Assembly (NCBI RefSeq): GCF_019795295.1
Contig: NZ_JAIMCG010000018.1
Location: 24,481 to 88,480, forward strand
Direction: 5' to 3'
DNA length: 64,000 nt
Origin: Cupriavidus sp. AU9028
GTDB lineage: Bacteria > Pseudomonadota > Gammaproteobacteria > Burkholderiales > Burkholderiaceae
Below the pieces are notes generated by a model. It had not been told where the DNA came from. It made no database searches and was given only the letters and a program-made list of their open reading frames with translations. The position numbers and the translations under genes are program-made. Below, one piece after another: positions 398 through 34,043 of this stretch (positions within the stretch are counted from its first letter, which is position 1; each line of letters begins with the position of its first letter).

Positions 398-949
398 TCA
401 GCGGTTGCCAGGATAGTGCGTGAATCGGCTGGCCGTGCCATCGGCCCGCACCAGCAGCACGTCGTACGTGTCCCGGCGGTCTCCCTGCTCCATGCCGGGC
501 GAGCCCACCGGCATGCCCGGCACCGCCAGTCCGGTTGCCTTCGGCCGCGCGGCCAGCAGCTTGCGGATATCGGCCGCCGGCACATGGCCTTCGAGCACAT
601 AGCCCTCGACCACGCCGGTGTGGCACGAACCGAACCGCTCCGGCATGCCCAGCCGCGCCCGGTGCTCGCCGGTGTCCTCGACATTGCGCACCGTGGCCGC
701 GAAGCCGTTCTGCCGCAGGTGCGACACCCAGCCCTCGCAGCAGCCGCACAGCGGGCTCTTGAAGACTTCGATGGCGGGCGCCGCCGTGGAGGCGAGCGCC
801 GCGCGCGGCACGACGGCAAGCGCCGCCGCGCTGGCGGCCCCGGCGGCGAGCAGCATCAGCGCCTGCCGGCGCGTGACAGGCGGCGAGAACGGCCGCGATG
901 GGTCCAGCATCGCCACCCCGATCGATCGCGAAACGCTTCGCTTGCTCAT
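398..949 (-). CDS. DUF411 family exported metal-binding protein
   Basis: Encodes 183 residues. The N-terminus has a twin-arginine-like stretch (TRRQALMLLAAGAAS, residues 26-40) and an Ala-rich h-region ending near residue 52, so the protein is probably exported, perhaps by Tat. The mature part is a DUF411 domain starting with EVFKSPLCGCCEGW, whose clustered cysteines, together with a later SCHTGVV motif, are the likely metal ligands. DUF411 proteins are often found near copper-handling genes, but none are seen here. The start ATG overlaps the TGA of the upstream hydroxybutyrate dehydrogenase gene (ATGA, 946-949), so the two are probably translationally coupled. A second ATG at codon 14 (910) would leave a more typical signal-peptide n-region and cannot be excluded. 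Confidence 0.85.
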   Translation of the reverse strand: MSKRSVSRSIGVAMLDPSRPFSPPVTRRQALMLLAAGAASAAALAVVPRAALASTAAPAIEVFKSPLCGCCEGWVSHLRQNGFAATVRNVEDTGEHRARLGMPERFGSCHTGVVEGYVLEGHVPAADIRKLLAARPKATGLAVPGMPVGSPGMEQGDRRDTYDVLLVRADGTASRFTHYPGNR

Positions 950-1722
950 TGCGCCACCCATCCTCCATCCATGTTCCACGCCGCCCCTCGCACCTGCGCG
1001 GCGGCATCGCTGGCCAGGAACACCGCCAGCGCGCCGAGCTCCTGCGGCGTGACGAACTGGCCCGAGGGCTGCTTCTCCATCACCAGTTCGCGCTTGGCCT
1101 GCTCGACCGGGATGCCCTCGCGCTCGGCGCGCGCATCGACCTGCTTCTGCACCAGCGGCGTCAGCACCCAGCCGGGGCAGATCGCGTTGGCCGTGATGCC
1201 GGTCTGCGCCGTCTCCAGCGCGGTGACCTTGGTCAGCCCGACGATGCCGTGCTTGGCCGCGACATAGGCCGACTTCTGGGCCGACGCCACCAGCCCGTGC
1301 GCCGACGCGATATTGATGATGCGGCCCCAGTTCTTCTGCTTCATGCCGGGCAGGGCCAGCCGCGTGGTGTGGAAGGCCGAGGTCAGGTTGATGGCGATCA
1401 CCGCGTCCCAGCGCTCGACCGGGAAGTCCTCGATGTTGGCCACATGCTGGATGCCGGCGTTGTTGACGAGGATATCGACGCCACCGAACTCGCTGTCCGC
1501 GTAGCGCATCATCTCCTCGATCTCCGCGGGCCGGCTCATGTCGGCGCCGTGATAGCCGACGCGGATGCCGTTGCCAGCCTGCTCGGCCTCGCGGCGGGCG
1601 CCGTCGGCGTCGCCGAAGCCATTGAGGATCAGGTTCGCGCCCTGCGCGGCCAGTGCCTGTGCGATGCCCAGACCGATACCACTGGTCGAGCCGGTGACCA
1701 GCGCCGTCTTGCCCTTCAGCAT
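946..1722 (-). CDS. bdhA: D-3-hydroxybutyrate dehydrogenase (SDR family)
   Basis: A 258-residue classical short-chain dehydrogenase that should interconvert D-3-hydroxybutyrate and acetoacetate with NAD(H) in the cytoplasm. The cofactor motif TGSTSGIG is at residues 10-17, NNAG at 87-90, Asn112, and the catalytic Ser140, Tyr153 and Lys157. The segments NNAGIQHVANIEDFP and NAICPGWVLTPLVQKQ are characteristic of 3-hydroxybutyrate dehydrogenases rather than of generic SDRs. The length is normal. The role fits turnover of polyhydroxybutyrate, for which this window also has a phasin gene. It is the first gene of a two-gene unit with the DUF411 gene. The exact paralogue within the bdh group is not certain. 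Confidence 0.88.
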   Translation of the reverse strand: MLKGKTALVTGSTSGIGLGIAQALAAQGANLILNGFGDADGARREAEQAGNGIRVGYHGADMSRPAEIEEMMRYADSEFGGVDILVNNAGIQHVANIEDFPVERWDAVIAINLTSAFHTTRLALPGMKQKNWGRIINIASAHGLVASAQKSAYVAAKHGIVGLTKVTALETAQTGITANAICPGWVLTPLVQKQVDARAEREGIPVEQAKRELVMEKQPSGQFVTPQELGALAVFLASDAAAQVRGAAWNMDGGWVAQ

Positions 1723-1972
1723 GGTTGCCTCCGTCGAGTAGGGTGAATGGCGCGGCGAATCCCGCCAGCGCCGCCGCCTGGCACTGCGGCCTCATCGTGT
1801 TGCCTGCCCCGGCGCCGCGGGAGCGCAAGGACACGGATGCGCGGCCACGTCGGCCAGGTCGGCTTGTCGCATTGTAGCGCCGGGGGCGTACAATCCGGCT
1901 TTACCCATCCGCCCCGCCAGGGGCTGTCATCGACGCCGGCACCGGCGTCCGCCACAAGAGAGGGGAGTGAGA

Positions 1973-2857
1973 ATGTCAGCCAGTCCGCGCCTCGGCTTTG
2001 TCCAGTGCTTCAGTCCCGCGGGCTTGCACCGCATGGCCTATCACGAGTGGGGGGACCCGGCCAACCCGAAGGTCCTGCTGTGCGTGCACGGGCTGACCCG
2101 CACCGGCCGCGATTTCGACGCCCTCGCGCGCGAGATGTGCGGCGAGTACCGGGTGGTCTGCCCCGATGTCGCCGGACGCGGCAACTCCGATCGCCTGGCC
2201 GATCCACGCCATTACATCGTGCCGCAGTACGTGTCCGACATGGTCACGCTGATCGCCCGGCTGCAGGTCGAGAAGGTCGACTGGTTCGGTACCTCGATGG
2301 GCGGCCTGATCGGCATGGGCCTTGCGGGCTTGCCCGGCAGTCCCGTGCGCAAGCTGCTGCTCAACGATGTCGGTCCACGCATCGCGCCGTCGGCGCTGGA
2401 GCGCATCGGCGCCTACCTCGGGTTGCCGGTGCGCTTTCGCACCTTCGAGGAAGGGCTTGCTTACCTCCAGACCATCAGCGCTTCCTTCGGCCGGCACACC
2501 CCGGAGCAGTGGCGCGAGCTGAATGCCGCTATCCTGAAGCCGGTGCAGGGCAACGAAGGGCTGGAATGGGGGCTGCATTACGACCCGGCGCTGGCCGAGC
2601 CCTTCCGCGGCATCACCCCGGAAATGGCGGCGGCCTCCGAGGCCGCGATGTGGCGATTCTTCGAGGCGATCCAGGCGCCCGTGCTGATCGTGCGCGGCGC
2701 GCAATCGGACCTGCTGACGCGCGAGACGACGGCCGAAATGGTGCAGCGCGGCCAGTCGGTGCGCTCGATCGAGATCGAGGATGTCGGCCACGCGCCGACC
2801 TTCGTCGATCCGGCGCAGATCGCCATCGCCAGGGACTTTTTTCTCGGCGCCGGCTGA
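1973..2857 (+). CDS. alpha/beta-fold hydrolase
   Basis: Encodes 294 residues from the ATG at 1973, chosen because a purine-rich ribosome site (AGAGGGGAG) ends about seven bases upstream; an in-frame GTG two codons earlier is less well placed. The fold is clear: VHGLTRTGRDFD gives the oxyanion strand, GTSMGG carries the nucleophile Ser108, an Asp sits in the RGAQSD segment and a His in DVGHAPTF. The closest general pattern is that of small-molecule esterases or lactonases of the alpha/beta hydrolase superfamily with a cap domain. The substrate cannot be named from sequence. A RidA-family gene follows after 70 bases and may be co-transcribed. Confidence 0.85.
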   Translation: MSASPRLGFVQCFSPAGLHRMAYHEWGDPANPKVLLCVHGLTRTGRDFDALAREMCGEYRVVCPDVAGRGNSDRLADPRHYIVPQYVSDMVTLIARLQVEKVDWFGTSMGGLIGMGLAGLPGSPVRKLLLNDVGPRIAPSALERIGAYLGLPVRFRTFEEGLAYLQTISASFGRHTPEQWRELNAAILKPVQGNEGLEWGLHYDPALAEPFRGITPEMAAASEAAMWRFFEAIQAPVLIVRGAQSDLLTRETTAEMVQRGQSVRSIEIEDVGHAPTFVDPAQIAIARDFFLGAG

Positions 2858-2927
2858 TTCGGTCGGCACCGCATCGAACCTGAAACACGCGCCCGACGCG
2901 AGGGCGCGACAGCATCGAATCCACACC

Positions 2928-3290
2928 ATGAGCACTGAACTGAAGCGCGCCCACGTCGGCAAACGCCTCTCCGAATACGCCGTCTACAACGGTGTCGTCT
3001 ATCTGGGCGGCCAGGTCCCCGAGGTCAATCCCGAGGCGGATTTCCGCGCGCAGACCCGCGAGGTGCTGGGTCATATCGACCGCCTGCTGGCCGAGGCCGG
3101 CAGCGACAAGACCCGCATCCTGACCTGCCAGATCTTCCTGGCCGACATCGCGCTGATCGGCCAGATGAACGAGGTCTGGGACGAGTGGGTGCCGCAGGGC
3201 AATACGCCGCCGCGCGCCACCGTGGAGGCGAAGCTGGCCGATCCGCGCTATCTGATCGAGGTGGTGGTCAGCGCGGCATTGAACGCATAG
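2928..3290 (+). CDS. RidA family protein (YjgF/YER057c/UK114)
   Basis: A 120-residue cytoplasmic protein of the RidA superfamily, the members of which typically form trimers and hydrolyse reactive enamine or imine intermediates from amino-acid metabolism. The start ATG at 2928 gives a protein of standard length; the longer open frame begins inside the preceding gene. Recognisable features are YNGVVYLGGQVPE near the N-terminus, a DIALIGQMNEVWDEWV helix, PPRATVEAKLADPRYLIEV with Arg96 in the position of the substrate-binding arginine, and a terminal EVVVSAAL strand. This is one of the divergent subfamilies rather than the archetypal RidA, so its specific substrate is unknown. Confidence 0.88.
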   Translation: MSTELKRAHVGKRLSEYAVYNGVVYLGGQVPEVNPEADFRAQTREVLGHIDRLLAEAGSDKTRILTCQIFLADIALIGQMNEVWDEWVPQGNTPPRATVEAKLADPRYLIEVVVSAALNA

Positions 3291-3317
3291 GCGACAGCGC
3301 CGCGCTGACCTCGGCCT

Positions 3318-3345
3318 GCCCCTCTCCCGTCCGCGGGAGAGGGGC
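3318..3345. repeat. Perfect 12-bp inverted repeat (intergenic hairpin)
   Basis: GCCCCTCTCCCG at 3318-3329 and its exact complement at 3334-3345 enclose a four-base loop, followed by more purine-rich sequence. It lies between the RidA stop and relA. There is no T-run, so it is not a standard intrinsic terminator. The sequence resembles the CCCTCTCCC/GGGAGAGGG palindromes scattered between genes in this family of bacteria; a degenerate relative is visible near 60352-60378. Confidence 0.65.
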
Positions 3346-3418
3346 AGGGGGAGAGGGCGCCGGAGAGAGAGGGAAAGCGCGGCAGCAGCATGGTTGAAGG
3401 CGGAGAGATCTTGTCGAG

Positions 3419-14180: not shown

Positions 14181-14257
<77 letters not shown>

Positions 14258-14258
14258 G

Positions 14259-14281
14259 TAAAATCAAGGCCTAGCGGGTTT
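14259..14281 (+). repeat. att-like repeat, left copy, abutting tRNA-Pro
   Basis: TAAAATCAAGGCC begins two bases after the tRNA CCA and recurs as TAAAATCAAAGCC at 16154-16166. Over 23 bases (14259-14281 against 16154-16176) most positions match. The two copies bracket the three-gene cassette. Both also form the left arm of a terminator hairpin, so they could be similar terminators rather than recombination sites. Confidence 0.4.
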
Positions 14282-14297
14282 TCTCGCTAGGCCTTTT
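14266..14297 (+). terminator. Intrinsic terminator after tRNA-Pro
   Basis: AAGGCCTAGCG (14266-14276) pairs with CGCTAGGCCTT (14285-14295) around an eight-base loop and is followed by Ts. It should end the tRNA-Pro transcript. Confidence 0.85.
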
Positions 14298-14304
14298 GTC
14301 TAAC

Positions 14305-14333
14305 TTGGATGCAGTTGTCTAACTTGATATAAA
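14305..14333 (+). promoter_or_regulatory. Candidate promoter of the three-gene cassette
   Basis: TTGGAT (14305-14310) and TATAAA (14328-14333) are separated by 17 bases, just upstream of the first cassette gene. A 10-base direct repeat, GTCTAACTTG, overlaps it at 14298 and 14317, with a related GTCTAAGTTG at 16213. The repeats could bind a regulator or an integrase. Confidence 0.5.
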
Positions 14334-14404: not shown

Positions 14405-15160
14405 ATGCTCAAGCGCATTCCCACTAGGCTCGGCAAAGAGCCCCTCGTAGACGCGCTCTTTCAGATCCGGTTTCTGTCTGTCTCCTCTTCGCTTGCGACC
14501 CTACTTCCTGGCTTCCTATTCGCTAGGAACGTTGGCGTCTTACCCGGCATTCAGCGACTACCACTTGCGGATATACCGCAGCATGTAAGAGACAACACTC
14601 CCGAGTTGCAGTATCACCCGTTGTTGCGAATTGAGTTCGAGCACTTTTTTGCTACAGTTGGCGATAAGGTTGTCGTTATTGGTTGTAAGCTGCCATATCC
14701 CGGTTGGACAAGCTTCAAGGCTAAGATCTTAGAAGTGCTAGATGGCTTAGGCCCCCTTGACATCTTGAGTGAAGTAGAGCTCGTATCCCTCAAATACGTT
14801 GATGTACTTGAGAAGGCTGCTGCGGGGGACGGTATCAGTCAGCTTGAGGCTAAAGTGGAAGTCGCAGGGAGAGTCGTTTCTTCAGGCAAGACGATGTTAA
14901 GAACATCATTCTTGGCCGATGGACTTTCAAACGATCTTCAGCTGTTTACCCCCTTTGATGGGGAAGTTGCCGGGCGCGGTGCATTGCAAGGCATCGCGAT
15001 AGAGGTCGAGACCACTATGGCGCGCGAGATTTTGACGGCCCCACCCGGTTTGGAGGCAATGCCGCAACATCTAGATCGCCTTCATGGGGTAAATAAGTCC
15101 GTTTTCTTCGATGTGCTGACAGAAGAAGTCGTCGGAAAGCTGGACCCGATATATGAATAG
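14405..15160 (+). CDS. TIGR04255-like family protein (cassette gene 1)
   Basis: A 251-residue protein (start at ATG 14405; an in-frame GTG at 14369 would add 12 residues). The N-terminus LGKEPLVDALFQIRF matches the opening of the sporadically distributed TIGR04255 family, whose function is unknown, and the length fits. The middle has repeated beta-strand-like stretches and a C-terminal hydrophilic helix with HLDRLHGVNKSVFFDVLTEEV. It uses codons such as ATA, TTA and AGA that the flanking core genes avoid, and the DNA is visibly AT-richer, which points to recent transfer. It overlaps the next gene by eight bases (15153-15160), so the two are translationally linked. The family call rests on remembered motif resemblance and needs a profile search. 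Confidence 0.65.
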   Translation: MLKRIPTRLGKEPLVDALFQIRFLSVSSSLATLLPGFLFARNVGVLPGIQRLPLADIPQHVRDNTPELQYHPLLRIEFEHFFATVGDKVVVIGCKLPYPGWTSFKAKILEVLDGLGPLDILSEVELVSLKYVDVLEKAAAGDGISQLEAKVEVAGRVVSSGKTMLRTSFLADGLSNDLQLFTPFDGEVAGRGALQGIAIEVETTMAREILTAPPGLEAMPQHLDRLHGVNKSVFFDVLTEEVVGKLDPIYE

Positions 15161-15701
15161 CTCAAATATCGAAACAAAGGCCAATGGACTCAACTCGGCT
15201 CTCTTTGCCACCATGCTGTTGGCAGGAAGCATGAACGCAATTGCCATTCCGTCTCATCACGGGCCGGATGCTCTTCGCTATTCGATTGGTCAGAACTTGC
15301 ATTATTTTAAGGGCGCGAGCCGCCCGCTATGGCGCTCGACTTGGTCCGACGCTGGTGACGCTGAAAATCGTTCAGGAAAGGGGACTGAACCTATTGCCAC
15401 ACGTGATGCGTGGGCTCAGCTTCGTCACACAGTGGAATTGGCAGGTATCGATGTCGACAGATCGGAGTTGATCTATAGGATAGCTCGCCAGTTTATTGAC
15501 GCTCGCGAGATTCAGCTAGTAGATGTACAGGCTCGCCTTTCGGTAGATCCGGAGGAAGGCGTTTCTTATGCTGCTATCCGTTTCCTTGCGGATATGGAGT
15601 TCGAGGCCGCAATGGAAGCTGATTGGGAGATGGCTTCAGAGATCCTCGAACATAACGAATTTCCAGAGGGCCTAACGGTCTCACTCCGATCGATCGCATA
15701 A
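15153..15701 (+). CDS. Uncharacterised protein, cassette gene 2
   Basis: Encodes 182 residues that I do not recognise. The start ATG overlaps the end of the preceding gene. A moderately hydrophobic stretch near residues 14-33 (SALFATMLLAGSMNAIAI) could be a buried helix rather than a membrane segment. The C-terminal half is acidic and probably helical (ATRDAWAQLRHTVELAGIDVDRSEL, then EFEAAMEADWEMASEIL). No catalytic motif is evident. The tight packing between a TIGR04255-like gene and an HEPN-like gene suggests an adaptor, antitoxin or sensor subunit, but that is inference from position only. Base composition is AT-rich like its neighbours. Confidence 0.7.
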   Translation: MNSSNIETKANGLNSALFATMLLAGSMNAIAIPSHHGPDALRYSIGQNLHYFKGASRPLWRSTWSDAGDAENRSGKGTEPIATRDAWAQLRHTVELAGIDVDRSELIYRIARQFIDAREIQLVDVQARLSVDPEEGVSYAAIRFLADMEFEAAMEADWEMASEILEHNEFPEGLTVSLRSIA

Positions 15702-15703
15702 CG

Positions 15704-16123
15704 ATGATCTCTATCGAAGAGTTAGGCGCATACGGTCGTGGCTTGGTGGCGTCAGATGCCCCGGAGGTCCAGCTAAGAACCGCGGCGGGACGGATGTATT
15801 ATGCTGCATTTCACCGCTGCCGCGCTGCGAGTGAAGTTCACTGCAATGAGCTTCCCAAAGAGGATTCCGATAATAAGGGATCGCACCAAAAGGTATATGC
15901 TCGTCTTGAGCGGCATTGCCGGAACACCGCCATATCGGACCGCCGTTTGCGCTTAATTTGTCAAAGAGCGAGGGACATGCTCGAATTGCGAGTACGAGCC
16001 GACTACCATATCAACGACACCTTCGACTACAAGGCTGCTCGAGAAATGCAGTCCTTGCTATTTCAGCTTAATCGAGAATTTGCGGAAGTCGATAGAGAGA
16101 TCCAGATGGGCGCGGCGTGCTGA
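15704..16123 (+). CDS. HEPN-like helical protein, cassette gene 3
   Basis: A 139-residue all-helical protein starting two bases after the previous stop. It has the layout of small HEPN proteins: RTAAGRMYYAAFHRCRAASE (a RAYYAAFH-type first helix), then a GSHQKVYARLERH helix, then LRLICQRARDMLELRVRADY and a final long helix. Arg30 and His37 form an RX6H pattern, the spacing used by HEPN ribonucleases, although in typical toxins this motif lies in a later helix and a polar residue follows the Arg, which is Met here. It could be an RNase toxin, an inactive HEPN scaffold, or a related helical domain. The DNA is AT-rich and probably acquired. Confidence 0.6.
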   Translation: MISIEELGAYGRGLVASDAPEVQLRTAAGRMYYAAFHRCRAASEVHCNELPKEDSDNKGSHQKVYARLERHCRNTAISDRRLRLICQRARDMLELRVRADYHINDTFDYKAAREMQSLLFQLNREFAEVDREIQMGAAC

Positions 16124-16153: not shown

Positions 16154-16176
16154 TAAAATCAAAGCCCGGCGGATTA
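16154..16176 (+). repeat. att-like repeat, right copy
   Basis: TAAAATCAAAGCCCGGCGGATT-type sequence, the counterpart of 14259-14281 next to tRNA-Pro, lying 31 bases after the last cassette gene. Together the copies define a segment of about 1.9 kb that contains the cassette but not the integrase gene. Confidence 0.4.
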
Positions 16177-16196
16177 GACCGTACGGGCTTTTTTCC
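16161..16196 (+). terminator. Intrinsic terminator after the cassette
   Basis: AAAGCCCG (16161-16168) pairs with CGGGCTTT (16184-16191), followed by a T-run. It closes the three-gene unit, and in reverse could also stop transcription from the integrase gene, whose stop codon is just beyond. Confidence 0.7.
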
Positions 16197-16214: not shown

Positions 16215-17213
16215 CTAAGTTGACTGCCTCATGCGCACGGGACTGACACGTTCGACCTCCCGCGCTTTGATGTACTGCGCAGTCATGTCGGCGGTCGTAT
16301 GGCCACCCAGCGCCTGCGCGGCCTCCTCCCCATCCTGCCGCCTCTTGTCGGTCAGAGCCTTGGCTCGGATGTCGTGGAAGTGCATGCCCATCAGGAACCG
16401 CTTATCGGGTTCCTGCCCTGCCTTCTGGCAATCAACCTCGTAAGACTTCCTCGCCCTCTGGCAGGCACGCTTCCAAGCCGTCTGCGCGCCGCTGTAGGTG
16501 AACCGGCCCCCTGACTGGGTGCATATCACCGGGCCGATTGCCTTTACCTTGCCTGACTTAGCGGACTCCAACGTTGCCTGTAGGTCCGGCGTCAGCTCAA
16601 CCAGCATCCTCACGCCAGAGCTATTCACCGTCTTCGACGGGTGAAATAGGATCCCTTCGTGCGTTACGTCCGACCAGTTCAGCGCCAGCAGGTCCCCGAT
16701 GCGCTGCCCTGTCTGGTACGCCAGATCGATCAGGGCGACGATAGTTCGGCCAGACGGGGTTGGCTTGCCGTCGGCCCCAAGCATCGCCGCGGCGCGAACG
16801 GCAGCAAGCTCCTCGTCGGAAATGTACCGGTCCCGCTTGCCTTCGCTGGCCCCGGCAACTTCGCTCACCGGGTTGTTGTTCCTCAGCCCCTTCCGCACGG
16901 CGAAGGTGAACATCACCGACATGAGCGCCCGGTACTTGTTGCTCGCGTTCGGCTTGCTCTCAAAGTGCTTGTCGAGAAAGCGCGCCACGTCCTTAGGCTC
17001 TACGTCCTCCACCCGCCAGTCCTCATCGAACTCGGATCGGATGAAGGTCGCCATCCGGCGGTATTCCTCTTGGGTCTTGGGCGAGTATTTCTGCAGCTTC
17101 GTCCTCAGCCATGAGTCGATCAGCGCCGGCATGGTGTCCTGAGCCCGATCGTCTGCTTCCCGGTTGAAGGCCGCAAGCTGTTTGTGCCGGACGATATCGG
17201 TGGTCCCAGTCAC
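16215..17213 (-). CDS. tyrosine recombinase / phage-type integrase
   Basis: Encodes 332 residues with a SAM-like core-binding domain (about residues 28-115) and a C-terminal catalytic domain. The catalytic set is complete: Arg171 (in TGQRIGDLL), Lys194, His280 and Arg283 (in HFHDIR), His305 (in LGGHTTADM) and the nucleophile Tyr314. The start is a GTG, with an in-frame TGA only four codons further up. The N-terminal arm-binding domain common in tRNA-targeting integrases is not obvious, so the gene may be 5'-truncated or start differently. It points towards tRNA-Pro, as integrases at tRNA sites often do, but lies outside the two att-like repeats that flank the cassette. Confidence 0.92.
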   Translation of the reverse strand: MTGTTDIVRHKQLAAFNREADDRAQDTMPALIDSWLRTKLQKYSPKTQEEYRRMATFIRSEFDEDWRVEDVEPKDVARFLDKHFESKPNASNKYRALMSVMFTFAVRKGLRNNNPVSEVAGASEGKRDRYISDEELAAVRAAAMLGADGKPTPSGRTIVALIDLAYQTGQRIGDLLALNWSDVTHEGILFHPSKTVNSSGVRMLVELTPDLQATLESAKSGKVKAIGPVICTQSGGRFTYSGAQTAWKRACQRARKSYEVDCQKAGQEPDKRFLMGMHFHDIRAKALTDKRRQDGEEAAQALGGHTTADMTAQYIKAREVERVSPVRMRQST

Positions 17214-17599: not shown

Positions 17600-18601
17600 C
17601 TAGCCGAGCAGAGCCCTGTTGAGGGTGGGGCGGGCCACCAGCGCTATGGCGGCATAGCTTCCGAGAATAGTCGCGATGCCAAGCAGTGCGGGGCTGCCAA
17701 TCTTGGGCAAAAGCCACAGCACCAGGAACGGGTGAACGCAATACAGCGCCAACGAGTTGCGGGCCATGAACCGGACGACAGGGCCTGCGGGGCGCTTCAG
17801 ACAAAGAAGCAAAATCAGCGCCGCAGCGGAGGTGCCGACCAGCGAAAGCCGCGTGTAGGGCGGCACAATGAGACTTTCGCCCGGTACGGGATTAGGAATT
17901 GGCTGCGTCCACCACTCAAGGCAGATGCATGCGACGGAGAGCAGGAGCAGCGCGGTAGCGCAGGCCAAGGATTGAGACGAGCGCTCGGGACGATGGCGTA
18001 CCAATAGTATGGCCGCTCCCGCATAGGGGAAGAAGTTGACCGGGTTCCAGTAGGCGGTGGCCCACTCGACGGCGTGCTCGGCCGTAAGCCATTGCATGAC
18101 GGGGATCCCTGCGCAGAGCAACAGGAAGACGATCCAGGTGACGACTCCTCTTGTTCGCAACAAAAGGGCGGTCAGGACCAGCGCTGCACCGAGGGCAAAG
18201 AAGAAGTAAAAGACCGTACCGAAGGCGTAGATCACCGATTTGAAAGGCGTTTTGCTCAAGGCCTCCCATATTGTGTCTATCCCGCCGTAACCGGAGGCAA
18301 AGATGATGTAGGCGACAGGCCAGAACAGGCCCAATACTGCCAAGCGTCTGAGGCGTTTGGTGAGCGTCCCGCTTCCTCCGCCCTTCAGTGCATAGAGGTA
18401 ACAGGAGGTCAGTACGAAGAACGGCACTGCAACCAGGAGCACAGAGAAGTTCAGCAGGTCCAGACCGCTAGGGCGGTAATGTACGGTTGCGCTCTTCCAT
18501 ACATCCGGCGAGCCGGGCGCGTGCGTATGCCATAGAACCACGAACAAGGAAAAAAGGGCTCGCCCATAGTCCAGCCCGTTGATACGCCCACTCTCTTGCA
18601 T
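17600..18601 (-). CDS. membrane acyltransferase, acyltransferase-3 family
   Basis: A 333-residue polytopic membrane protein with about nine or ten hydrophobic segments. The opening INGLDYGRALFSLFVVLWHTHAPGS carries the family's conserved Arg and the His in the second half of the first membrane helix; NSLALYCVHPFLVLW near the C-terminus is also typical. Such proteins transfer acetyl or other acyl groups onto extracellular sugars (O-antigen, capsule or exopolysaccharide). The substrate is not predictable. A second member of the same family lies just upstream in the same direction, 68 bases away, so the two may form an operon. Both sit beside an integrase, which suggests they arrived as a surface-modification module. 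Confidence 0.85.
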   Translation of the reverse strand: MQESGRINGLDYGRALFSLFVVLWHTHAPGSPDVWKSATVHYRPSGLDLLNFSVLLVAVPFFVLTSCYLYALKGGGSGTLTKRLRRLAVLGLFWPVAYIIFASGYGGIDTIWEALSKTPFKSVIYAFGTVFYFFFALGAALVLTALLLRTRGVVTWIVFLLLCAGIPVMQWLTAEHAVEWATAYWNPVNFFPYAGAAILLVRHRPERSSQSLACATALLLLSVACICLEWWTQPIPNPVPGESLIVPPYTRLSLVGTSAAALILLLCLKRPAGPVVRFMARNSLALYCVHPFLVLWLLPKIGSPALLGIATILGSYAAIALVARPTLNRALLG

Positions 18602-18669
18602 GCGGTTGATTTCAATTGATACGAGCCCGCATTCTAGCGGCCACGTTGAAAACGGCGGACTGAACCAGC

Positions 18670-19779
18670 CTACGAGGCTACGGGAGTGTCGCCCATTGGC
18701 GACCGCCGATATCCCGCTCGTCGCGCCTCTATCGCACGCGCAAGCGCTCCCCCGAGACGCTGGGTCGGGCGCTCCACCGCATGAAATGCCAGAAAGGCAC
18801 TAGCCAGGGTTGCGACAATAATGCCGACAGGGTAGGCGCCCAACGGAATAAGTTCAGCCTGCAGTTCCGGAGAAGCCGACTTGGCAATCGCCTCCGCGGT
18901 GTAGATCACCGGCAGATGAAGCAGATAGATCGAATACGTGTAGTCGCCCAGTGCGCCCGCGCGCCTGGAGATGCGGTCCTCGAACAGGACGACGGAGAGG
19001 GCGAACAGCGCTGCCGGAATACCCCAGCCAATGAAGCGCGGGAGTTCCGTGTCGATGGCGAACAGCAGCACCTCCATGCGGGGGACGCTCATGCCCCAGT
19101 TATGCGGCCAGTCCGTGCCGTGGGCGGCGAAAACCAGCAGGGCGGTGCTGCAGATCAGGATTGGCATGCGCCAGCGGCGCAGGCTCTCCCAAAGGTCCTT
19201 GCGCAACCACAGCAGGCCAAGGGCGATGCCGAACGCAAACTCGACGATGATGGACGCGGTGAAATAGATGGTGTTGTCGATCAGAAGCGAAGCGCATCCG
19301 AGCAGCGTGACTGCCACTGCCGCGGCCTTGGTTTTCCATGGCAGAAGCATGCAGACCGCCGTCAGCGCATAGAAGTACATCTCGAAATGCAGGGTCCAAC
19401 CGGCGTGCAAGGGAGGATCCCAGAATCCGGTCGGGCTCAGGTAGGGCGCGAAAACGAGCCATTTCCAGTACGACTGCAGCTCCACGCCGCGTGTCGCCAT
19501 GTATGCCATCGTGACGAGGGCATAGAGCGGCCAGATGCGGAAGATCCGGCGCACTGCGAAGGCAAGGGCATTGCGGATTCCCGGGGCACGGTTGGCCGTG
19601 GTCACGACCATCAGGAAACCGCTGATGCAGAAGAACAGGTCAACACCGATGGACCCGCATATTTGCATGCCGCCGCCGCAATTGAGCACATTCCCAACCG
19701 GCAGGGCCCAATTCGGGATGTGCGCGAATAACACCGACAAGGCGGCGATGAGCCGCAGCAGCTGAATGCTGTTTAGCAT
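18670..19779 (-). CDS. membrane acyltransferase, acyltransferase-3 (OafA-like) family
   Basis: Encodes 369 residues with around ten membrane segments. The N-terminus LNSIQLLRLIAALSVLFAHI and the GVDLFFCISGFLMV segment are the standard acyltransferase-3 signature (R...H and FF.ISGF). YTYSIYLLHLPVIY near the C-terminus is equally typical. It probably O-acylates a cell-surface or exported carbohydrate using an acyl-CoA donor from the cytoplasm. It is the upstream member of the pair with the preceding entry; the two differ in sequence, so they likely act on different positions or substrates rather than being a duplicated gene. Confidence 0.9.
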   Translation of the reverse strand: MLNSIQLLRLIAALSVLFAHIPNWALPVGNVLNCGGGMQICGSIGVDLFFCISGFLMVVTTANRAPGIRNALAFAVRRIFRIWPLYALVTMAYMATRGVELQSYWKWLVFAPYLSPTGFWDPPLHAGWTLHFEMYFYALTAVCMLLPWKTKAAAVAVTLLGCASLLIDNTIYFTASIIVEFAFGIALGLLWLRKDLWESLRRWRMPILICSTALLVFAAHGTDWPHNWGMSVPRMEVLLFAIDTELPRFIGWGIPAALFALSVVLFEDRISRRAGALGDYTYSIYLLHLPVIYTAEAIAKSASPELQAELIPLGAYPVGIIVATLASAFLAFHAVERPTQRLGGALARAIEARRAGYRRSPMGDTPVAS

Positions 19780-32201: not shown

Positions 32202-32277
32202 TGGTGGGGCGTGAGTGACTCGAACACTCGACCTACGGATTAAGAGTCCGCTGCTCTACCAACTGAGCTAACGCCCC
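32202..32277 (-). tRNA. tRNA-Lys(CTT), copy 1
   Basis: A full 76-base cloverleaf with encoded CCA on the minus strand. The acceptor stem pairs GGGGCGT with ACGCCCC, and the anticodon loop CTCTTAA gives CTT. The T-arm has GTTCGAGTC. An identical tRNA is at 33968-34043. Confidence 0.97.
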
Positions 32278-33967: not shown

Positions 33968-34043
33968 TGGTGGGGCGTGAGTGACTCGAACACTCGACCT
34001 ACGGATTAAGAGTCCGCTGCTCTACCAACTGAGCTAACGCCCC
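33968..34043 (-). tRNA. tRNA-Lys(CTT), copy 2
   Basis: Identical in all 76 bases to the copy at 32202-32277, with anticodon CTT and encoded CCA. It too is followed by a matching terminator, so a block of about 135 bases is repeated on both sides of the aminohydrolase gene. Confidence 0.97.

Follow-up and report, generated by a model that had tools for sequence, protein, structure and literature searches.

Organisation of the locus

The DNA analysed here, called the window, is a stretch of 64,000 nucleotides (nts) from Cupriavidus sp. AU9028 (contig NZ_JAIMCG010000018.1, positions 24,481 to 88,480 of the forward strand), and its element of interest is a cassette of three intact, open genes at 14405-16123 on the forward strand (Table 1). 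The cassette is located between tRNA-Pro(ggg) and a prophage-type integrase gene. Genes 1 and 2 overlap by 8 nts (ATGAATAG), genes 2 and 3 are separated by 2 nts, and gene 1 starts 147 nts past the tRNA. This tight packing at tRNA-Pro had been described in an earlier note made from the letters of the window and is confirmed; the integrase gene, directly downstream on the opposite strand, was absent from that note. The deviant composition it reported was also found, as the GC content of the cassette is 0.52 vs 0.658 for the window, and the GC content at third codon positions is 0.50-0.56 vs 0.83-0.88 in three upstream core genes (overall GC of these core genes 0.64-0.68).

Two terminator-like hairpins are present. 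The one that follows gene 3 with a T run, proposed previously as the cassette's own terminator, has a predicted stability of −18 kcal/mol at 16161-16191 that was equalled in 0 of 200 shuffles; the terminator scan, which found 3 sites vs 3.3 expected, did not list it. A second hairpin lies between the tRNA and the cassette and is more deviant (−24 kcal/mol, again 0 of 200 shuffles). An own promoter, also claimed earlier, is not supported: across 3.5 kb, 3 promoter-like sites were detected vs 1.9 expected, which is not above chance, and none falls wholly between tRNA-Pro and gene 1.

Gene 1 was assigned to TIGR04255, as had been suspected, since the NCBIfam model matches residues 9-242 of 251 above its curated cut-off (60.4 bits, cut-off 30). 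TIGR04255 is a named family with no assigned function and a sporadic distribution, being present in 30 of the 398 genomes of the phylum sample; for the window's taxonomic family, phrog_5464, which gene 1 also matches (9e-41), was found in 4 of 398 genomes. A literature search, with most subscription papers and preprints outside it, found the name TIGR04255 in the text of no paper and no toxin-antitoxin system with a TIGR04255 component among the matches listed.

On balance, the cassette is probably a toxin-antitoxin module with three components that belongs to a decayed prophage, and its role is most likely anti-phage. This interpretation draws on features read from sequence, namely the recurrence of the operon, the exchange of its third gene, an N-terminal module and an antitoxin tail recognised in the second gene of two sister operons (L012 and L018), and the prophage context. 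Toxin-antitoxin or defence function was the field already favoured in the earlier note, and it is retained here.

Table 1. Features of the cassette and its flanks, in positions of the window.
Feature	Position	Strand	Evidence
tRNA-Pro(ggg), 3' end a probable attachment site	14181..14257	+	ARAGORN, Rfam tRNA
Hairpin with T-rich tail after tRNA-Pro, terminator-like	14266..14297	+	z −7.2
Two direct copies of TTGTCTAACTTG, possible arm-type integrase sites	14296..14326	+	0.01 expected by chance
Gene 1, TIGR04255 protein, 251 aa, proposed chaperone/sensor (third component)	14405..15160	+	TIGR04255 60.4 bits, phrog_5464 9e-41, A4 alignment
Gene 2, 182 aa, N-terminal hydrophobic segment (about residues 16-33) and conserved C-terminal part, proposed antitoxin	15153..15701	+	
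Gene 3, 139 aa, HEPN protein (AF0298/HEPN-T type), proposed RNase toxin	15704..16123	+	phrog_5176 5.3e-16, profile of 14 relatives
Hairpin and T run 3' of gene 3, terminator-like	16161..16196	+	z −3.7
Tyrosine recombinase, 332 aa, prophage remnant	16215..17213	−	Phage_integrase 50.4 bits

Recurrence of the operon

Searching with gene 1 by tblastn returned four phage records, two of which are one phage, and one Bacteroidales plasmid. No match to gene 2 or gene 3 was obtained in phages by the same method, and with gene 1 alone as query in genome contigs 100 stretches matched a pattern and none was confirmed. The gene-1 alignment A1 recovered 31 genome loci and 13 viral contigs, and a second viral scan with alignment A4 added one further contig (L158), which carries an operon of the SNSCD family described below. 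Genes 2 and 3 follow gene 1 in 30 of the 31 genome loci and in 12 of the 13 viral contigs, which is the recurring co-occurrence that had been named in the earlier note as a test of its proposal. Among 29 new loci from the phylum sample (L054-L082), the two genes follow TIGR04255 in 24, with L075 and L082 judged in the longer stretches L105 and L106, and gene 3 belongs to a recurring or Pfam-named family in 21.

Across the table of 79 operon loci (71 different), the overlap between genes 1 and 2 is 8 nts in 42 loci (35 different) and 4 nts in 16. This count includes the failed chains L026, in which gene 1 is interrupted, L039, L062 and L074; gene 2 was read in the wrong frame in L028-L030 and L073, and gene 3 is broken in L033 and L034. 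The order of gene 1, gene 2, most often with an 8-nt overlap, and gene 3 is a recurring unit.

Exchange of the third gene

The third genes fall into seven clusters and ten singletons, some of the latter being failed chains. The largest family, present at 46 of the 79 loci, is an unnamed one, here 'SNSCD' (phrog_4575); two clusters of three members each are HEPN proteins, and other unnamed families are present. Gene 3 of L018 is a PIN protein (PF01850, 39.1 bits, cut-off 23.6) and that of L059 a PemK/MazF protein (PF02452, 67.9 bits, cut-off 23.1). No names besides PIN, PemK and a helix-turn-helix domain were returned by Pfam and NCBIfam scans of the other gene-3 and gene-2 proteins.

The nearest relatives of the window's gene 1 are two Paraburkholderia proteins (43% and 41% identity), and a related HEPN protein (53% identity) is encoded in their operons. 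In a tree of 47 gene-1 rows, from which L005, L052, L053, L026, L034, L003, L048, L051 and L046 were removed as copies, broken or distant, a supported clade of four (98/95) comprises one HEPN, one PIN and two SNSCD operons. The PemK gene of L059 sits behind another close gene 1, and HEPN operons are also found behind divergent TIGR04255 genes in genomes G513 and G650. At the level of sequence, one control part, TIGR04255, serves differing toxin families: HEPN, PIN and SNSCD within one clade, and PemK.

Four TIGR04255 operons (L057, L060, L067 and L106) have a helix-turn-helix-looking gene 2 and, as gene 3, an unnamed family of 271-303 aa. The HTH_3 model matches gene 2 of L060 above its cut-off (24.2 bits) and is weak in L067 and L082/L106.

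Gene 2, a composite candidate antitoxin

The window's gene 2 matched no family in the family scans, save for PF02090 below its cut-off (14.4 bits, cut-off 35), and the two Paraburkholderia relatives share its conserved C-terminal part. The composite nature of gene 2 was recognised in sister operons. The gene-2 protein of L012, a HEPN operon, is matched at 22.8 bits (E 3e-5) by a profile of the N-terminal module (N-module) built from 31 SNSCD gene-2 proteins, where the highest score among 6400 shuffles was 10.3 bits, and the corresponding C-module profile has no match to this protein. Among the other gene-2 proteins the N-module rises above shuffles only in L069, which is a copy of one profile member. 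Gene 2 of the PIN operon L018 resembles three free-standing PIN antitoxins over its last ~40 residues, which match their tail (19.2 bits, with 10.4 bits as the highest score among 7100 shuffles), and no other of the 71 gene-2 proteins is among the best 7 matches of that search. These three antitoxins come from cyanobacterial plasmids, and their toxins are 36-38% identical to gene 3 of L018; the N-terminal part of the L018 protein differs from theirs. Because L018 has the PIN-antitoxin tail and L012 combines the SNSCD N-module with another C-terminal half, the best reading makes gene 2 an antitoxin that carries a control segment, gene 3 the toxin and TIGR04255 the third component. The sensor/adaptor/effector scheme of the earlier note is sharpened in its middle part by the tail in L018; its sensor is kept as a conjecture.

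A free PIN toxin-antitoxin pair related to that of L018 is located on a Planktothrix plasmid (L149, 695-1793), directly ahead of the DISARM gene drmA.

Genes 2 and 3 could also be an ordinary two-gene HEPN toxin-antitoxin pair, with TIGR04255 as a regulator or accessory that is dispensable for neutralisation. HEPN proteins of the same family do occur without TIGR04255, beside other proteins, and related PIN toxins have free antitoxins with no TIGR04255 within the stretches read. An ordinary pair is nevertheless considered unlikely, given the distinct N-terminal part of gene 2 in L018, the overlap of genes 1 and 2 in most loci, and the SNSCD family itself, which was found in 7 of 398 genomes and has TIGR04255 two genes upstream in five of them (of the other two, one has an unrecognised gene of 308 aa in that place and one is cut off by the contig end).

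Similarly unlikely is that gene 2 is a membrane-anchored or exported adaptor, which would place the action of the cassette at the envelope, with gene 1 sensing envelope damage or injection. The protein does have a hydrophobic stretch: the best 17-residue hydropathy in the first 70 residues is 1.80 in the window's gene 2 and has a median of 1.45 in 70 gene-2 proteins vs 0.43 in gene 3, and a stretch of 1.6 or more occurs in 25 of 70 gene-2 proteins vs 1 of 70 gene-3 proteins (counts made without L026, L039, L062, L074, L028-L030, L073 and L034). At least one Lys or Arg precedes the stretch in 51 of the 70, as expected for this explanation. The remaining 19 have none, however, many of the segments are short with a high content of small residues, and among the exchanged C-terminal parts is the tail of PIN antitoxins, which are generally regarded as cytoplasmic.

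Gene 3, a HEPN protein

No Pfam model matched gene 3 alone, which has a match to phrog_5176 (5.3e-16). The profile of 14 gene-3 relatives (A5) matches the solved HEPN proteins 9xbd (1.8e-9), 9xbc (5.3e-8) and 2hsb, which is AF0298 (9.9e-5), and so the HEPN-like character noted earlier stands; the Pfam HEPN family PF05168 matches five of the 14 members at E up to 0.1, gene 3 itself not among them. Arg25, Tyr32, His61 and Tyr101 are conserved in all 14, and Arg30, Arg96 and Asp100 in 13.

The RX6H pair that the earlier note had pointed out, Arg30/His37, does occur in the window. Only 8 of the 14 homologues retain His37, however, and the pair is rejected as the HEPN active site. The canonical RX4-6H motif is not conserved in the family; in its place is Arg96-x3-Asp100-Tyr101, and in the alignment with AF0298 the His and the Arg-x3-Asp-Tyr of that protein fall in the same columns as those of the gene-3 family. 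The section of PMC3710099 on AF0298-type HEPN proteins describes the motif His as typically absent and another conserved, upstream His as one that could serve instead, and since such loss is described for AF0298-like members the missing His is no bar to membership of the superfamily. Judged by sequence, gene 3 is a HEPN superfamily protein of the HEPN-T/AF0298-like type and a predicted RNase, with Arg96 and His61 more likely to be the active residues than Arg30 and His37.

If the loss of the usual motif instead meant that the HEPN protein is catalytically dead, the cassette would be a binding or sensing module and TIGR04255 the true effector. This is very unlikely: the alternative His described for AF0298-type proteins has its counterpart in the invariant His61, Arg96 is kept almost throughout, and PIN and PemK proteins occupy the same place in sister operons.

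HEPN proteins of phrog_5176 are often preceded, in L083-L099, by a TPR-looking protein of ~225-275 aa rather than by TIGR04255. One such partner was scanned and had no Pfam match; a HEPN family in an operon with TPR is among those listed in PMC3710099.

Prophage setting

Up to tRNA-Pro, the sequence is shared by all 59 of the other genomes sampled in the genus, and the alignment ends no more than 11 nts past the 3' end of the tRNA in 48 of these, extending further in 11. One or two copies of TTGTCTAACTTG were found at the same place in four relatives (L132-L135). The hairpin after the tRNA also recurs in relatives, with arms that are changed yet complementary in L134 and L131. The integrase lacks about 45 N-terminal residues of its longer relatives, as determined by alignment with three of them and by tblastn of the missing part. 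The element is read as the remnant of a prophage that has kept its cargo, because no second attachment core was found in the window up to the contig end and because the integrase is shortened by these residues. That it is an inert relic with no present function, for which the same two observations could be cited, is hardly credible, as the cassette has kept all three of its reading frames open, while from tRNA-Pro to the acyltransferase-looking genes beyond the integrase no other gene of a prophage was noticed.

Eight of these tRNA-Pro places in the genus (L131-L138), mostly selected for an alignment that continued past the tRNA or for another copy of the tRNA end close by, were compared with the window. 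A close, longer relative of the integrase is present in L133, L134 and L135, and partially in L132, with cargo genes between the attachment site and the integrase; no such pair of integrase and cargo was seen in the other four. The slot of L135 (683-2365) has a match to PDC-M18A (338 bits) and that of L133 (4334-4960) to PDC-S67 (219 bits) in PADLOC. The slot of L132 (591-3202) holds two genes; HEC-01A (87 and 52 bits) and HEC-01B are among their PADLOC matches, and for the AAA gene among them AriA was the best of 112 PADLOC models (95 bits). No PADLOC match was obtained for the slot of L134. Thus candidate defence cargo, by PADLOC models for both known and candidate defence proteins, is present in three of these four slots, and for this reason anti-phage defence is the likely role of the cassette. 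The slot between tRNA-Pro and integrase could be mined in this genus for new systems.

In L131 (genome G380), 2.6 kb lie between two copies of the tRNA-Pro end (682-3275) and contain a short recombinase-like open reading frame. Beside the prophage remnant of the window, two adjacent genes for acyltransferase-looking membrane proteins were identified by eye (17600-19779); their GC content is lowered, at about 0.60. Elsewhere in the window, two tRNA-Lys(ctt) genes are located 1.7 kb apart (32202-32277 and 33968-34043).

Proposed mechanism

In the mechanism proposed, gene 3 would be a HEPN RNase toxin that is neutralised by the C-terminal part of gene 2, and the N-terminal hydrophobic segment would make gene 2 dependent on gene 1. 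Gene 1 would bind this segment, perhaps during synthesis, and so keep the antitoxin stable; the overlap of the two genes by 8 nts would fit co-translational binding. A phage product that occupies or removes gene 1 would lead to loss of the antitoxin, and the HEPN protein freed in this way would cut RNA and abort the infection. TIGR04255 is proposed for the chaperone part because a constant component, exchanged toxins and an added antitoxin segment together make up the design of toxin-antitoxin-chaperone (TAC) systems.

Several observations weigh against this interpretation. The label 'chaperone' for TIGR04255 comes from genetic logic alone. No solved structure related to the family was found, and no homology to SecB was detected, with a probability of 0.5% in an hhalign comparison of 34 TIGR04255 rows with 5 SecB rows, although a distant fold relation is possible. 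PADLOC-DB 2.0.0 has no family for the three cassette proteins or the integrase at E up to 1, and four sister gene-3 proteins are likewise without a PADLOC model. In L170 (genome G487, 2473-3399, reverse strand), which is the SNSCD exception mentioned above, the position of gene 1 in an SNSCD operon with a gene-2-like protein is taken by the unrecognised gene of 308 aa, possibly a divergent or a different third component. The four slots compared for defence cargo were picked and are not a random sample.

The remaining points concern gene 2. Profile comparison did not detect the N-module in gene 2 of the window (0.6 bits), and its score in gene 2 of L018 was not above shuffles (6.0 bits); the tail of the L018 protein had no match in plasmids by tblastn. 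Gene 2 of the PemK operon L059 also had no match in plasmids by tblastn, and none to the partners of three free PemK toxins. A comparison of the C-terminal part of the window's gene 2 with the partners of TIGR04255-free HEPN proteins was suggestive only (hhalign E 1.9e-4, probability 48%), and a second run gave a probability of 5% and no score above shuffles; homology is not claimed, and this part is not detectably a known antitoxin. Alternatively, the hydrophobic segment of gene 2 may act as a signal for membrane insertion or export.

A broader proposition is offered tentatively. TIGR04255 may represent antitoxin chaperones of a new class that also sense infection, are unrelated to SecB in sequence, make antitoxins depend on them through an N-terminal segment, stand before many toxins (HEPN, PIN, PemK, SNSCD and unnamed families) in several phyla and are in part antiviral cargo of prophages. 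If this were true, one mechanism would explain many operons with unrelated-looking third genes, several unnamed gene-3 families would together turn into candidate toxins, and control of toxins by chaperone-like proteins would extend beyond the SecB family.

Comparison with known systems

The TIGR04255 cassette would work in the manner of a TAC system, yet no homology to SecB, by which TAC systems are defined, was detected. In the TAC systems covered by the pertinent text of PMC5105189, the antitoxin has a C-terminal addiction region to which a SecB-like chaperone binds, and these regions are without significant similarity between systems. The pair of chaperone and addiction region can be moved to other toxins. 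With two test proteins the extension is also active when N-terminal, for which co-translational binding is one explanation offered there. In the anti-phage system CmdTAC, the toxin is freed when the chaperone is drawn off by a capsid protein of the phage, according to the account in PMC11618068. Three genes and a varied toxin with a constant control part are common to TAC systems, CmdTAC included, and to the operons described here (PMC5105189 for the former); the antitoxin extension of TAC systems has a candidate counterpart in the N-terminal segment of gene 2. They differ in that TIGR04255 has no detectable relation to SecB, the shared segment is N-terminal instead of C-terminal, and the genes are ordered as third component, antitoxin, toxin. 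The toxins of TIGR04255 operons also differ, being HEPN, PIN, PemK and SNSCD proteins, whereas PMC5105189 gives the toxin-antitoxin part of TAC systems as generally HigBA, HicAB or MqsRA.

The third gene is like the HEPN-T proteins (PF05168, AF0298-like; type described in PMC3710099), as Arg-x3-Asp-Tyr replaces the motif and the upstream His aligns with that of AF0298, but its partner is gene 2 under TIGR04255 and not a minimal nucleotidyltransferase. With type II pairs of the VapBC/PIN and MazEF/PemK kinds, the operons share the toxin families of L018 and L059 and the antitoxin tail in gene 2 of L018, and they are set apart by the other N-terminal part of that antitoxin and by the added third gene. 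The family assignment of these two sister toxins, together with the one antitoxin tail, speaks for a type II arrangement in which gene 3 would be toxic and gene 2 would neutralise it.

With regard to genomic position, two sister cassettes resemble cases treated in the relevant parts of PMC9122126. The Dobby cassette adjoins the portal gene of a P2-type phage, as in the gpA-gpQ hotspot, and the VW-6S cassette is located between the CI repressor and the integrase, which is the type of place given there for a Vibrionaceae prophage. The slot in the window is unlike these P2/P4 hotspots, being flanked by tRNA-Pro and by an integrase that belongs to a different family of prophages.

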